From: Zestosphaera sp.
GTDB taxonomy: Archaea; Thermoproteota; Thermoprotei_A; Sulfolobales; NBVN01
Reading direction: 5' to 3'
Length of the DNA stretch: 64,000 nt
Assembly: GCA_038727705.1 (NCBI GenBank)
Contig: JAVYVJ010000001.1
Coordinates: forward strand, 669,924 to 733,923
Part shown: positions 47,388-53,498 of the stretch, piece by piece
Numbering within the stretch: the stretch's first letter is position 1
Layout of the letters: each line of letters starts with the position of its first letter
Made by a program: the position numbers and the translations under genes
The notes under the pieces: generated by a model
What the model saw: only the letters and a program-made list of their open reading frames with translations
The model's database searches: none
Told to the model about the DNA's origin: nothing

Positions 47388-47804
47388 GTGGACAGTTTGA
47401 CTGAGGGTCTAGTGCCTGCACTCCTAGGTCTTTTCAATGCCTTCCTGATTATAGGCATTATAGTGTGTATTCTTTACCTCTACAGAAGGCTAGTGATAGA
47501 GAAGGTCAGGCCCTCGGCAGTAAGTGTGGCTGAGGGGAAGCCTGGAGAGGAGCCTAAAAAGGAGGAGCTCAAGATTGCCGAGGGACCTAAAGAGGTGGGC
47601 ACGGCCCCACATGAGGAGATAGCGGCAGCGGTTGCTGCTGTAAAGCATCACGTGAAACTCAAGTCGCTGGCCAAACCTGTAGCCACGATTGCTGGGCCTC
47701 AGTCATTTACATCGGCCTGGCTGACCAGTTGGCTGAGCGAAATCACGCAGAGCTGGGATTACAACCCATATGCCGTCAGGGAGCGCAAGATTCAAGAAGG
47801 TTAG
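47388..47804 (+). CDS. small membrane protein resembling OadG (decarboxylase gamma subunit)
   Basis: About 138 residues: one N-terminal membrane segment (GLVPALLGLFNAFLIIGIIV), a charged Glu/Lys/Pro linker, then HEEIAAAVAAVKHHV and an amphipathic C-terminal part with SAWLTSWLSE. A single N-terminal membrane helix followed by an Ala-rich EEIAAAVAA helix is the layout of sodium-pump decarboxylase gamma subunits, but no alpha or beta subunit is nearby. GTG start at 47388 with GGTGG five bases upstream. The call rests on layout only. It converges on thiDN with a four-base overlap. Confidence 0.45.
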   Translation: MDSLTEGLVPALLGLFNAFLIIGIIVCILYLYRRLVIEKVRPSAVSVAEGKPGEEPKKEELKIAEGPKEVGTAPHEEIAAAVAAVKHHVKLKSLAKPVATIAGPQSFTSAWLTSWLSEITQSWDYNPYAVRERKIQEG

Positions 47805-49168
47805 TCCATACTTAAAATTCTAACCAACTTCATCACAGCTTCTACAGCATCCTTACCCAGTATCCTTATCATGGCTTCCTTACCCACACATCCAGTATCG
47901 TATATGATGTCGGGGGTCCTTCCACTAGCCTTGAAAGCCTCCGCCACCAACCACTTTAGACTACCCCCCTCAACTCTCTCTACGTCTTCAGGCTCCTTCA
48001 TCCTGTCAACGTGAACTACCTCATAACCGATGCTCCTCGCCCTAATAACGTACTTTTCATCGAACCTGATGTTTAGTGCGGCCCTTACCTCGGCATCTCT
48101 CTTCATTACCTCCATGACTAATCTGGCTAGATGTGATGACGCTCCGAACTCAACCGGGCCCACCGCCTTTACCTCACCACCACATCTAACTATCCTGCCT
48201 GCAACCCCCGCTACATCATCAACCCCCCTCACATACCGTAGCGGCACACTCATAACAACGTTCATGCCGACTTCAGGAATCGCCTCAACCACTAGTCTTG
48301 AATTTTCAAGCAGCATTTTAAGAGCCTCCTTAACTTTCACTAGGGTCTGATACTTAGATGCGGGGATCTCCAGCCAGGCAGTCGGGTTGACGGGACAATG
48401 CCCCTTACCGAGCTTCGTCCCGAACTCTATAGCTCTAGTCACGAACTCCTTAGCCTTCTTGACGGACTCGTAGATGTTCGAACCCTTAGCTAATTCAGCA
48501 GCTATAGCTGCTGAGAAGGTGCATCCAGTTCCGTGAGTGCAGCCAGTGCTGATTCTAGGACCCCTTAAGATGTAGTGACCGCCTCTCCAGTAAAGAACGT
48601 CTACTGATTCCTCATCGCCCAGGTGGCCTCCTTTAACGACCACCGCCTCGCAACCGAAATCCTCAACTATTCTCCTGGCCACCAGTTTTGAATCTTCTAT
48701 ACTCTCAACTCTTATCCCCGTGAGGTGTTCCGCCTCAGGAACGTTAGGCGTCACCACCTTGGCTAATGGTAATATCTCTCTCTTCAACGCCTCTACAGCA
48801 TCCTCCCTAAGCAGTCTGGCACCGCTCTTAGCAATCATCACAGGATCCACGACCAGGGGGAATGAGAACTCCTTAACAGCCTTGGCCACGGCGTGTATTA
48901 TGCCACTACTACTTAACATGCCTGTCTTTCCAGCATCTATCCCCATGTCCCTAGCTACTGCCTCAATTTGCTTGTAAACAATCTCGGGAGGTATATCATG
49001 GATCGCAGTCACTTCATACGTATTCTGAGCTGTGACACTAGTAAGGGCTACGGTCCCATGGACGCCCAGGGTGCTGAAGACCTTTAAGTCTGCCTCGATC
49101 CCAGCTCCTCCGCCCGAGTCGCTACCAGCTATAGTTATCGCAACCCTCCATAAGCGAGCTCCGTCCAA
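47801..49168 (-). CDS. thiDN: bifunctional HMP(-P) kinase / thiamine-phosphate synthase (ThiD-ThiN)
   Basis: Residues about 10-265 are ThiD, which phosphorylates hydroxymethylpyrimidine twice ([44 protein letters not shown]). Residues about 275-455 are ThiN, the archaeal replacement for ThiE, which joins HMP-PP and thiazole phosphate; its blocks include [20 protein letters not shown] and [15 protein letters not shown] start with GGTGAT six bases upstream. Divergent from thi4, 74 bases apart. Confidence 0.92.
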
Positions 49169-49242
49169 AGCCCATCACCACCACAAACATTATTACTAAG
49201 AAATAAAAACCTTAATAATCAAGTTTTACAAGGGATGTTAAT

Positions 49243-50022
49243 ATGGAATCCCTAGAGTCGAGGATCACTAAAGCCATATGGAGATCGACTGCAGATGATT
49301 GGCTTAAGCTTACCAACTCTGACGTAGTGGTAGTCGGCGCCGGTCCCTCAGGACTTACAGCAGCCAAGTATCTAGCGCAGGCAGGGTTTAAGACGGTAGT
49401 GCTTGAGAGACGATTGAGTTTCGGCGGCGGTATCGGAGGCGGTGGGATGTTACTTCATAAGGTAGTGCTTGATGGAAGGGCCGTATCAATACTTAAAGAG
49501 TTCAACATAAAGTATGAGTACGCGGGCGACTACGACCTCTACACAGTGGATTCATCTGAATTAATGAGCAAACTCGCCACTGGGGCAATAGATGCAGGGG
49601 CTAAGATACTCCACGGAATCACTGCAGAGGATCTCATAGTGCGTGAGAATCCATTTAGAGTGGAAGGGGTTGTAGTTCAGTGGAGTGCAGTCCACATGGC
49701 AGGTTTACATGTGGATCCGCTCTTCATTCGTTCGCGAGCCACGGTAGATGCTACAGGACATGAGGCAGAGGTCCTCAGAATACTTGAGAAGAAGAACCCC
49801 ACAGCAGGCGTCAAGGTATTTACTGAGAGGTCAGCGTACTCAGAGGCAGGTGAGTCATCGGTAGCTGAGATGACCGGTAAGGTTGTGGAGGGCCTCTACG
49901 TAGCTGGTATGGCTGTTGCTGCACTAAACCGCTTGTTTAGGATGGGCCCTATATTCAGTGGGATGCTCCTCTCAGGGAGGAAGGTGGCTGACGAGGTAAT
50001 TAAGGATCTTAGGAGGTGTTGA
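49243..50022 (+). CDS. thi4: thiazole synthase Thi4, sulfide-using type
   Basis: Makes the adenylated carboxythiazole from NAD and glycine. The FAD/NAD motif GAGPSG is at residues 32-37, with the GGGIGGGG loop at 61-68. At the position of the self-sacrificing Cys of yeast Thi4 the protein has His156 (GLHVDPL), as in methanogen enzymes that take sulfur from free sulfide and act catalytically. 259 residues. ATG start, divergent from thiDN; tenA follows six bases later. Confidence 0.93.
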   Translation: MESLESRITKAIWRSTADDWLKLTNSDVVVVGAGPSGLTAAKYLAQAGFKTVVLERRLSFGGGIGGGGMLLHKVVLDGRAVSILKEFNIKYEYAGDYDLYTVDSSELMSKLATGAIDAGAKILHGITAEDLIVRENPFRVEGVVVQWSAVHMAGLHVDPLFIRSRATVDATGHEAEVLRILEKKNPTAGVKVFTERSAYSEAGESSVAEMTGKVVEGLYVAGMAVAALNRLFRMGPIFSGMLLSGRKVADEVIKDLRRC

Positions 50023-50027
50023 ATGTC

Positions 50028-50696
50028 ATGAAGCCCTCGGAGATGCTGTGGTCTGGGATCAAGGAGATATTTGATGCGATAGTAAGGCATCCCTTCATAG
50101 AGGAGTTGAGCAAAGGAACTCTCTCCGAGGCTGTCTTCAGAAATTACGTGATTCAAGACGCACTATACTTGGACGAATACGCACGGATCCTCGCGTTACT
50201 TGCAAGTAAAGCCCCTAGGGAGGAGTGGGTTAGGTCCTTCGTGGAGGACTCCTCAGCCATCATAGATTTTGAGAAAGCCCTCCATAGAGAGTACTTCAGT
50301 GTGTGGGATCTAAGCCCTGAGAAAGTGAGATCAGCGCCGCAGAACCCCACTAACCTTGCTTACGTTAATCATCTTTGGAGATCCGCCCTCCTGGAGGAGT
50401 TCCCCGTGGGTGTGGCAGCGGTGACTCCGTGTTATTGGATATATCTTGAGGTTGGTCGTTATCTTGAGGCTAAAGGTTCCCCCAATGAACTCTACAAGAG
50501 ATGGATAGCCACTTACTCATCCAAAGAGTATGCTAAGTACGTGGCCAGAATCCTCGACATAGTTGACGAGTCGTTAAGCTATGTTAACAGGCTTGTATGG
50601 GCTAAGGCGACGAAAGCTTTTAGACTGAGTTCCATTTACGAGTACATGTTCTGGGATGCTGCCTACAACATGGAAGCCTTTCCTTTCCAGGTGTAA
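50028..50696 (+). CDS. tenA: TenA/thiaminase II family aminopyrimidine hydrolase
   Basis: All-helical protein of about 222 residues that salvages HMP from degraded thiamine. Active-site features are DALYLDEYARIL near the N terminus, the Cys/Tyr block TPCYWIYLEVG, and the C-terminal MFWDAAYNMEAFPF with the catalytic Glu. ATG start at 50028 with AGGAGGTG nine bases upstream; an earlier in-frame GTG overlaps thi4. Second gene of the thi4-tenA operon. Confidence 0.92.
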   Translation: MKPSEMLWSGIKEIFDAIVRHPFIEELSKGTLSEAVFRNYVIQDALYLDEYARILALLASKAPREEWVRSFVEDSSAIIDFEKALHREYFSVWDLSPEKVRSAPQNPTNLAYVNHLWRSALLEEFPVGVAAVTPCYWIYLEVGRYLEAKGSPNELYKRWIATYSSKEYAKYVARILDIVDESLSYVNRLVWAKATKAFRLSSIYEYMFWDAAYNMEAFPFQV

Positions 50697-50724
50697 GTGA
50701 CCAGTCCAGGTGTAAGTGACCAGA
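50687..50724 (+). repeat. 19-base tandem duplication over the tenA stop codon
   Basis: CCAGGTGTAAGTGACCAG is present twice in direct tandem (period 19, second copies ending A instead of T). The first copy contains the tenA stop TAA. A recent short duplication that does not change the protein. Confidence 0.9.
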
Positions 50725-50731
50725 TAATTCT

Positions 50732-51736
50732 TTAACCTGGTGCTTCAAGAATTTCTCCTGCTAATGCGTTCATGTCAGGGAGTTTAATTGGCACTTTATT
50801 GAAGTATCTCAGTAATTCTTTCTTATCCAAGTGAGGATTAATTCCGTACTCTCTAATGCCGTCTATAACCATATCTCTAGGTATGCCCACCTGCAACGCG
50901 TACCACTCAATCCATCTCTCAGGAGTCTTACTGTAGGTTTCGAGAGACTCCCTATAGAGGTTGCCGAGTTTATGGCGGATCTCGCTAGGTATTATGTTGG
51001 ACACAGCCAGGGTGCAGCAATACGGAATGTCAAGCTCTTCACCCTTCACAAGGGCTTTATAGCCCATACTCTGTAGTCTTCTATATAGAGGATGCCAAAC
51101 AACAGCATACTTAACTAAACCTGTGGAGGCCGCCTTAATCACCTCCTCAGGACTTCTGAAGTATCTAGTAGTTACTTCAGTAGCGGGTATAATGCCTTCG
51201 CCCACTACCAGCGACCTGATTAGATCCATTGTTGATAGCTCGCTCGAGTACATATAATCTGAAACAATATCTCCTCTCGTCATGACTGCCGATCCTCCGT
51301 AGGCACCGCCTCCGATTATCTTGAAATTTCTGAAAGCTAGATAAAAGTGCACTTGAGTTATCGCAGGGGACAGAGCTAATGCCACATCCCCTAGGACTAG
51401 GGATTTAGTGGCCTGCAGTGAGCTTGCGAAGACCACCACGTTTAGTGAAATATTTAACTTCTCTCTAACTCGTTTAGCGAAGACTGTTAGGAAGGGATAT
51501 TCACTTGACCACACGACCCCTATTTTCAGCGACTTGAGAACACTTGATGCGGCAGTCCCTTGAGTCTCAAGCAACTTAACTAGATACTGATTACCTACCT
51601 TAACTCTGGCAATCAAGCCTTCACGCTCAAGTGTACTTAAGACTTCAGAGACCCTACTCCTAGAAAGACCGAGAGACTTATGGAGGTGGCTCTGAGGCAC
51701 TAACTCACCCGCCCTTACTCCAAGGGCTTTTAACAC
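50732..51736 (-). CDS. transcription regulator: winged helix fused to a THI5/NMT1-like ligand-binding domain
   Basis: 334 residues. Residues about 1-55 form a winged helix (HLHKSLGLSRSRVSEVLSTL as the recognition part, then a wing). Residues about 70-330 resemble a periplasmic-binding-protein fold of the NMT1/THI5/TauA group (SLKIGVVWSSEYPFL, a hinge at VFASSLQATKSLVLGDVALA, then EVIKAASTGLVKYAVVW). It has no signal peptide or membrane segment, so it should bind ligand in the cytoplasm. THI5-like domains bind hydroxymethylpyrimidine or related molecules. It is beside tenA and divergent from a membrane protein and symporter, with a 14-base palindrome between. GTG start; ribosome site weak. Likely a one-component sensor of a thiamine precursor. 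Confidence 0.75.
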   Translation of the reverse strand: MLKALGVRAGELVPQSHLHKSLGLSRSRVSEVLSTLEREGLIARVKVGNQYLVKLLETQGTAASSVLKSLKIGVVWSSEYPFLTVFAKRVREKLNISLNVVVFASSLQATKSLVLGDVALALSPAITQVHFYLAFRNFKIIGGGAYGGSAVMTRGDIVSDYMYSSELSTMDLIRSLVVGEGIIPATEVTTRYFRSPEEVIKAASTGLVKYAVVWHPLYRRLQSMGYKALVKGEELDIPYCCTLAVSNIIPSEIRHKLGNLYRESLETYSKTPERWIEWYALQVGIPRDMVIDGIREYGINPHLDKKELLRYFNKVPIKLPDMNALAGEILEAPG

Positions 51737-51785
51737 TCTCTCACGAACACTCGTTCTAAATCCCCTGCCCCCAACGCTATGGAGG

Positions 51786-51801
51786 TCTTAAAGCTTATAT
51801 G
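51786..51801. promoter_or_regulatory. divergent TATA boxes of the regulator and symporter genes
   Basis: GCTTATATG (51793-51801) fits the plus-strand operon, whose transcript should start near 51822, and CTTTAAGA on the minus strand (51786-51793) fits the regulator gene. The two boxes are almost side by side. Confidence 0.5.
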
Positions 51802-51808
51802 TGTTGGT

Positions 51809-51822
51809 CGAACATATGTTCG
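51809..51822. promoter_or_regulatory. perfect palindrome, likely operator (CGAACATATGTTCG)
   Basis: A 14-base perfect inverted repeat between the plus-strand TATA box and the start of the small membrane protein gene at 51832. A protein bound here would block RNA polymerase at the transcript start, the common place for archaeal repressors. The nearest regulator gene is the divergent winged-helix protein, so autoregulation plus symporter control is likely. Confidence 0.7.
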
Positions 51823-51831
51823 GAGGTCCGG

Positions 51832-52017
51832 ATGAAGCCGGGAAGTCTGAGGAAGCACTACATCTTGGCCAGCATCATTGTTATGTGTCTTTTCTACATA
51901 ATCCCTTACATGTTTCTTAGGAAAGTCTTAGGACTTGAGTTATTTGCTTTCTGGGTTGGTTTGTCTCTAACCTGGCTGACGGTGACGAACATCCTGTTGA
52001 TAGGCGATTTGGTATGA
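51832..52017 (+). CDS. 61-residue membrane subunit next to the symporter
   Basis: Two predicted membrane helices (ASIIVMCLFYIIPYMFL and FAFWVGLSLTWLTVTNIL) with a basic N-terminus (MKPGSLRKHY). Such short two-helix proteins (DUF3311/DUF997-like, as YhdT beside PanF) often precede sodium:solute symporter genes. The start is the ATG at 51832 with GGAGGT four bases upstream; the earlier in-frame ATG at 51799 would lie on the TATA box. It overlaps the symporter gene by four bases (ATGA). Confidence 0.75.
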   Translation: MKPGSLRKHYILASIIVMCLFYIIPYMFLRKVLGLELFAFWVGLSLTWLTVTNILLIGDLV

Positions 52018-53498
52018 GTCCATTGATTTGGACGTTCACTGCTGTGTTAGTAGTTTATATAACGGTAGGCTCCCTGATAGCTTACCTCTCCAGGCGCCAT
52101 GGAGTTAAATCCAGCAGGGATTACTTCGTGTCTAGTTACAGGTTGGGTTGGTTTCTCTCCTCAATGACGTACGCCGCCACTACGTACAGTGCGTTCATGA
52201 TGGTCGGGCTCGTTGGACTCACATACACGAGCGGTATCGGAGCTTTAGGCTTTGAACTGGCCTACCTGCTGGTCACAGTAGTGATTTTAGCTATCCTAGG
52301 TCCTAGGGTGTGGTCAATGGCCAGGGAGAGGGGTTGGGTCAGTCCGTCCGAGATGCTCTCAGATCTGTATGGCTCTAAACTGATTGGCTACGTTATCACG
52401 ATAATTTATCTGATTGCGATGGTGCCTTACGTCTCGGCTCAGGTGATAGGTGCGGCCACCATATTCGAGGGTCTTGGACTAGGTTATGAAGTTGGCGTTG
52501 TAGTCGTAGCCGTCCTTGTCCTCGCGTGGATTGCACTGGCCGGCATGTGGAGTGTAGCGACCACTGACGCGTATCAGGGGCTCTGGATGTTGAGTGCAGC
52601 TCTGCTCCTAGTCTTCTTGCTTACGAACCGCTTAATACCAAACTCCGGCATCACCATAACGCAGCTGAATGAGGTCCTGGGCAAGGGAGGCCTGCTCGGT
52701 CTGACGGACTTCTGGTCTTTTCAGACTTTCCTGGCTTACACGATGCCTTGGTTATTCTTCGCTGTAACTAACCCGCAGGTGGTTGTAAGACTGTACGTTC
52801 CTAAGGACAGGGCCTCATACAAGAGATCAGTACTGCTCTTCTCGATCTTCGGTTTCACATACACACTGGCGGTGGTTTACGTAGGCCTCGTTGCTAGAGG
52901 TCTCGTCGAACTGGGTTTACTTGAGAGCATCACCGTCCCTGACCTAGTAACTTCTAAGCTACTCTCGAGTCTGGAGCCGGTACTAGCCTCCTTCATATAC
53001 ATGTCCATAATAGCTGCTGCAGTATCTACTGCCAACTCTATAATTTTGGCGGTGGCATCCTCATTCGTGAGGGACGTAATAGAGAGTCGCGGCAAGCCTG
53101 ACCTAAACACGTACCGCATCTCCAACGTCATAGTAGCCGCGCTAACGCTTATCTCATCGACGCTGGCGTTCATGAAGGTTGGATTCGTCGTAGATCTTTC
53201 AGTACTTACATCGGTCCTGCTATTGCCGCTGGCGCCTGTCACCATAGTCGCATGGATCACACCACACGCAAGTAGAAAGAGACCCTTAAAGGTTGCGTCC
53301 CTGCTATCCATCCTAGCGGGGTTTGCCGTGGCAATTACGCATGCCTCCATTCTAGGACCTAGAAGAACATTCCTCACGTCATATTACGGGGTGCCAGTCT
53401 CCGTGCTAGTATTAATGGTCGCGACTGCAGTGATGCTTGCGGGATTCACAGCCTTGAAACTTAGGGAAAAAGTATTGACTAGTGACGTCTACGCATAA
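52014..53498 (+). CDS. sodium:solute symporter family transporter
   Basis: 494 residues, about 13 membrane segments. Family blocks: SRDYFVSSYRLGWFLSSMTY in the first loop, GPRVWSMARERGWVSPSEML, and ISVSTANSIILAV-like AAAVSTANSIILAVASSFVRD, which carries the sodium-site serines and threonines. Closest in layout to the pantothenate/PanF branch, which includes the predicted HMP carrier ThiV. With a THI5-like regulator and thi genes beside it, uptake of a thiamine precursor is the best guess. The 3' end overlaps the convergent thioredoxin gene by 20 bases. Confidence 0.83.
   Translation: MSPLIWTFTAVLVVYITVGSLIAYLSRRHGVKSSRDYFVSSYRLGWFLSSMTYAATTYSAFMMVGLVGLTYTSGIGALGFELAYLLVTVVILAILGPRVWSMARERGWVSPSEMLSDLYGSKLIGYVITIIYLIAMVPYVSAQVIGAATIFEGLGLGYEVGVVVVAVLVLAWIALAGMWSVATTDAYQGLWMLSAALLLVFLLTNRLIPNSGITITQLNEVLGKGGLLGLTDFWSFQTFLAYTMPWLFFAVTNPQVVVRLYVPKDRASYKRSVLLFSIFGFTYTLAVVYVGLVARGLVELGLLESITVPDLVTSKLLSSLEPVLASFIYMSIIAAAVSTANSIILAVASSFVRDVIESRGKPDLNTYRISNVIVAALTLISSTLAFMKVGFVVDLSVLTSVLLLPLAPVTIVAWITPHASRKRPLKVASLLSILAGFAVAITHASILGPRRTFLTSYYGVPVSVLVLMVATAVMLAGFTALKLREKVLTSDVYA

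Follow-up and report, generated by a model that had tools for sequence, protein, structure and literature searches.

A conserved promoter palindrome, the probable operator of an adjoining winged-helix regulator, suggests an archaeal switch for NAD-precursor supply in Zestosphaera

Results

The divergent locus and its palindrome

The window (the whole stretch of Zestosphaera DNA that was analysed, 64,000 nucleotides) contains a winged-helix regulator gene divergent from two genes that encode a small membrane protein and a sodium:solute symporter (Table 1). The initial annotation had described a perfect 14-bp palindrome between a TATA box and the start of the symporter. The palindrome, CGAACATATGTTCG, is present exactly at 51809-51822, 8 nt after TTATAT (51795-51800, + strand), and an ATG does follow at 51832, after 9 intervening nucleotides. 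This ATG, however, opens the 61-aa membrane protein and not the symporter, whose gene start overlaps the stop codon of the smaller gene by four bases. On the other side, the regulator's TATA box begins 9 nt beyond the palindrome, as it does within the genus, and the AT-rich block AAAGCTTATATG (51790-51801) can be used as a TATA box for transcription either way. Transcription of the transporter operon is predicted to start at about 51820-51825, inside the palindrome or at its edge.

Table 1. Coordinates of the features at the divergent locus (positions within the window).
Feature	Position	Strand	Evidence or remark
Regulator, N-terminal winged helix and C-terminal SsuA/TauA/Thi5-type binding-protein fold	50732-51736	-	Pfam, alignment, AlphaFold2, Foldseek
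TATA box TATAAGCTTT of the regulator promoter	51790-51799	-	
TATA-like box TTATAT of the small-protein/symporter operon	51795-51800	+	AAGCTTATAT block conserved
Putative operator palindrome CGAACATATGTTCG, consensus CGAACANNTGTTCG	51809-51822		Conserved in orthologous promoters; recurs at nadA/nadB
Ribosome-binding-like GGAGGT	51822-51827	+	Shares the palindrome's last base
61-aa probable two-helix membrane protein	51832-52017	+	ATG 9 nt past the putative operator
Sodium:solute symporter (SSF) family transporter	52014-53498	+	Pfam PF00474, E 5.6e-29

The true start of the regulator is probably about 10 codons upstream of the annotated one. On the minus strand, 51737-51787 holds no ATG, GTG or TTG from the in-frame stop to the GTG at 51736, and homology (V-R-E-R-V-L) extends upstream; the codon aligned with the ATG of related regulators is AGG, either a non-canonical start or a sequence error. 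A second GAACACTCGTTC (GAAC-N4-GTTC) at 51745-51756 was considered as an operator and set aside because it falls inside this 5' coding extension (codons R-T-S-V-R). It lies 65 bp from the palindrome, is not conserved in the genus, and is possibly a weak auxiliary site in this genome. At the other end of the gene, a tandem direct repeat, CCAGGTGTAAGTGACCAG, lies at 50685-50725, between tenA and the regulator's 3' end.

By itself a perfect 14-bp palindrome is near chance: the window has six perfect palindromes of at least 14 bp against about 3.9 expected (64,000/4^7), and the non-random part is the promoter position together with the conservation described below. In the 1.59-Mb genome there is one exact copy of CGAACATATGTTCG, in this promoter. 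The genome search proposed in the initial annotation, with up to two mismatches, returned 4 places compared with 3 for the reversed control, so that the palindrome is no genome-wide repeat. Similarly, GAACNNNNGTTC was found 22 times against 33 for its control, and exact GAACANNTGTTC occurs at 3 places, the other two within coding sequence. Frequent occurrence in coding regions had been named as a point against an operator, and the genome-wide test leaves the operator reading standing. Genome-wide pattern searches gave no convincing further regulon copies in this genome.

The recognition helix of the regulator is SRSRVSEVL. The AlphaFold2 model of the protein (pLDDT 90.4, pTM 0.82) has a two-lobed type-2 periplasmic-binding fold in its sensor half, with 3ksj as the best Foldseek match (E 8.5e-14), Thi5 4esx at about 1e-9 and many matches at E < 1e-8; the HMM match in the PDB is SsuA 2x26 and is weak (E 8e-4). 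The sensor half thus has the SsuA/TauA/NrtA/Thi5 fold but differs from those proteins in its winged-helix fusion and in a Cys-Cys pair (residues 240-241) that is invariant in 64/64 aligned regulators, as are E79-Y80 and W214-x-P216. These residues possibly make metal or ligand contacts in the sensor domain.

The symporter carries the PF00474 domain of the SSF/SSS family. Its best NCBIfam match is the PanF equivalog (TIGR02119), at 87 bits far under the cut-off of 328. The 61-aa protein is probably an accessory subunit of the symporter; a DUF3311/YhdT-like assignment was expected for it and was dropped, there being no Pfam match.

Conservation of the site in orthologous promoters

Regulator orthologues are present in 17/31 genomes of the family and, at E 1e-20, in 117/214 of the order, Zestosphaera tikiterensis being among the records; the labels f1-f11 for families and g1-g78 for genera are the grouping used for the genome set, in which f9 appears to be Sulfolobaceae. 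All family regulators in intact divergent loci with the upstream region present have CGAACANNTGTTCG or variants of it by one or two bases. The divergent promoter carries CGAACAATTGTTCG in three congeners, CGAACAAATGTTCG in Zestosphaera, and a AGAACACGTGTTCG-like site in genera g4 and g5, whose regulators are only 28-30% identical, and exact CGAACATATGTTCG recurs in regulator promoters of the distant families f4 and f5. What stayed invariant in an unanchored alignment of ten promoters was GAAC..TTCG together with the TATA/AAGCTTT block. In these loci the regulator and the symporter are nearly always divergent partners. Thus the site, far from being absent from orthologous promoters, is kept at the same position in nearly all of them, which supports its assignment as the operator of the divergent winged-helix regulator.

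Some promoters fit less well. In the more distant L030 promoter a clear match was not found, only a three-mismatch version; the L031 promoter is uninformative for site conservation; and in f7 the motif is divergent, which we count against the operator reading. The near-chance frequency of such palindromes in the window would suit a chance palindrome, or an RNA feature, with no regulatory role. This explanation is contradicted by conservation over many genera at a fixed promoter place, with the arms fixed and the centre varied, and is hardly credible.

Matched changes in recognition helix and site

We compared the recognition helices of 64 regulator relatives with the sites in their promoters, each relative being scored on its own promoter. 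Helices ending in SE (SxS(R/W/Y)xSE) pair with GAACANNTGTTC, 30 SE-class members having it with at most one mismatch; eight members without a score comprise six f9 genes, which lie in another genomic context, L039 with two mismatches and L030 with three. Helices of the SRSWxWK/R type have GAAACANNTGTTTC in their own promoters in 8/8 cases, so that the change of helix from SxSRxSE to SRSWxWK is accompanied by a change of site from GAAC to GAAAC. The f7 group (helix SxxYxS(I/M)) has TAAACGGTTGTTTA-like sites in part. Direct binding predicts such matched changes, and they make the regulator the likely binder.

The same core may serve other regulators too, since TGAACANNTGTTCA is found upstream of an ArsR-family gene in G188, G190 and G204, and the palindrome could accordingly belong to some other winged-helix protein (ArsR/MarR-like) that uses a GAAC/GTTC palindrome. 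We regard this as highly unlikely, given that site changes track the recognition helix of the regulator and that the presence of a site at nadA (see below) tracks the regulator family of 50732-51736. The TGAACANNTGTTCA copies are kept at L198 1670-1683, L201 1752-1765 and L205 1664-1677, where the ArsR-family gene adjoins a flavoprotein reductase-like gene.

Loci L111, L112, L113, L115, L119, L120 and L122 hold a sister subfamily with operator GAAACANNTGTTTC, likewise divergent from an SSF symporter.

The site recurs at NAD synthesis genes

In G211 (JALWQH010000043.1) the palindrome lies between the regulator and divergent nadA-nadC-aspartate dehydrogenase genes, and the symporter is absent there. 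We scored nadA promoters across the order for GAACANNTGTTC with at most one mismatch within 200 nt. The site was present at 26/31 nadA promoters in genomes with the regulator and at 0/28 in genomes without it (Fisher 7e-12, overstated, as are the other Fisher p-values given here, because the genomes are related). By genus the counts are 12/13 with the regulator and 0/15 without (Fisher 4e-7), the collapse having been made by hand and relatedness not being fully removed. The f9 genomes have the site upstream of nadB too, and in G188, where nadA and nadB are divergent, exact CGAACATATGTTCG stands 3-4 nt before the ATG of each. In G010, the sole g4 genome with NadA, nadA is preceded by CGAACACGTGGTCG just before its ATG (L063 ~1451-1464). 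The occurrence of nadA/nadB sites only in regulator-bearing genomes, like the matched change of helix and site, further strengthens the operator claim.

For f9 the link between regulator and site rests on co-occurrence and on the shared recognition helix, since the regulator homologue there has no site in its own promoter and lies beside folE, away from nadA. In L097, L098, L104 and L105 (f9) this homologue directly follows a GTP-cyclohydrolase (folE)-like gene and adjoins a glutamine-synthetase-like gene.

NAD synthesis and the distribution of the symporter

NadA was not found in this genome, nor in 16 of the 17 regulator-bearing genomes of the family. The QRPTase-domain matches of this genome are weak (2e-18); proteins of 390-400 aa in two other symporter genomes, with similarly weak QRPTase matches, score as nicotinate phosphoribosyltransferase. 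On these sequence scores, a true NadC appears to be absent from this genome, and the QRPTase-like proteins would be of the nicotinate phosphoribosyltransferase type. Canonical NAPRTase_N was searched for in this genome and not found. A candidate NadE in the window, at 6.2 kb, was discarded, the match resembling a GMP-synthase-type ATPase.

Across the near-complete genomes of the order the symporter and NadA anticorrelate: 9 have both, 47 the symporter only, 33 NadA only and 29 neither (Fisher 4e-5). Genera g40, g53, g58 and g61 have one or the other by species. This avoidance fits a niacin-type importer used in place of synthesis, and we propose the symporter as a candidate importer of an NAD precursor of the nicotinate type.

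The surroundings of the locus also suggest another pathway. A cluster for ThiD-ThiN, Thi4 and TenA occupies 47801-50696, and ThiC is absent from the genome, so that the thiamine pyrimidine moiety must be salvaged or imported. With the same operator and regulator, the Thi5-fold-related sensor could then detect the thiamine pyrimidine and the symporter import it. Every examined member of the genus has the three thiamine genes next to the locus, ThiC was not found in the genus, and Foldseek returns Thi5 among the SsuA-like folds. Outside the genus, however, the thiamine genes are not adjacent, seven g4/g5 genomes with ThiC retain the regulator, the symporter and the operator, and the site recurs at nadA/nadB, which belong to another pathway. 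The limited adjacency and the g4/g5 genomes make thiamine the weaker reading, and we consider it unlikely.

Discussion

Judging from the sequence comparisons above, the adjoining regulator very probably binds DNA at the palindrome. We estimate a probability of about 0.78 for the joint reading in which the palindrome is the operator of the divergent regulator, the regulator is a repressor that answers to an NAD precursor, and the symporter imports such a precursor. A regulator dimer would probably bind the palindrome through its winged helices, with the C-terminal binding-protein fold as an intracellular sensor. Here it would govern one transcription unit, that of the small membrane protein and the SSF symporter, and would probably act on its own gene too. 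Since the site lies over the predicted transcription start and immediately precedes the TATA box of the regulator, a dimer bound there would obstruct polymerase on the transporter side, and we infer from this position that the regulator acts as a repressor.

The regulator might instead be an activator acting from the same operator. Bound upstream of its own TATA box, which in the genus starts only those 9 nt away, it could recruit TBP/TFB. The site on the transporter or nad side, on the other hand, is mostly found 3-13 nt upstream of the start codon (9-13 nt for the transporter operon in most loci with a clear start, 3-12 nt for nadA/nadB), a position suited to blocking, and activation seems to us rather unlikely. 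Under repression, the polymerase would be blocked at high levels of the NAD precursor or of NAD. An NAD precursor or product is the most likely signal, since in relatives the regulator and site are predicted to control nadA, nadB and nadC; nicotinate or quinolinate as ligand would be compatible with the pocket class. The symporter would most likely bring an NAD precursor, e.g. nicotinate, into an organism without NadA and apparently without NadC.

NAD-synthesis repressors (NadR, NrtR and NiaR) have been described from bacteria (PMC7713382, PMC5343564), and a search of a literature collection made up largely of open-access papers found no archaeal niacin or NAD regulator. NiaR is the niacin-responsive repressor of Bacillus/Clostridium, Fusobacteria and Thermotogales (PMC7713382, PMC5343564). 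The proposed regulator resembles it in joining a DNA-binding part to a small-molecule domain, in its presumed repression of niacin uptake and/or NAD synthesis genes and in having putative operators at nad and transporter genes, the nadA and nadB sites of regulator-bearing relatives being of this kind. The effector domain of NiaR is 3H, whereas the regulator here has an SsuA/Thi5-type binding-protein fold and an archaeal host, and neither Pfam nor NCBIfam gave a 3H match for it. NadR and NrtR control the NAD pathway as NiaR does (PMC7713382). NadR has NAD-synthesis enzyme activities and NrtR a Nudix-related domain; the regulator has neither, Pfam and NCBIfam giving no match to the NMN adenylyltransferase or ribosylnicotinamide kinase domains of NadR or to the Nudix-related domain. 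As the three bacterial repressors do not share its sensor fold and their defining domains are absent, the regulator would work like NiaR without being a member of that family.

Two further systems bear comparison. ThiR, the archaeal thiamine regulator (HTH-ThiN), likewise couples an archaeal HTH to a metabolic sensor domain, and the context in this genus is one of thiamine genes; ThiN gave no Pfam or NCBIfam match in the regulator and was seen only in the ThiD-ThiN protein. LysR-type regulators combine a winged helix with a type-2 binding-protein fold as sensor; here Pfam gave no LysR-domain match, and the sensor half is closest to SsuA/Thi5.

The site and regulator appear to form a previously undescribed archaeal switch that governs synthesis or import of the NAD vitamin precursor. 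If so, they would be an archaeal counterpart of the bacterial NAD repressors with a different sensor fold, and would offer a predicted regulon whose operators are exactly specified, in an order with some genetically tractable members, an SSS-family candidate for niacin transport, and a natural series in which helix and site change together. More broadly, we lean slightly towards an archaeal NAD-homeostasis family across the Sulfolobales, in which a transporter-type binding protein would have become an intracellular pyridine-carboxylate sensor joined to a winged helix, with at least two operator specificities through recognition-helix change. Such regulators would control NAD synthesis or else a new niacin symporter that has a small subunit.

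In G200, CGAACATGTGTTCG (L203 1686-1699) has an amino-acid-permease-type gene on one side and an MFS gene on the other; both are candidates for alternative NAD-precursor transporters.
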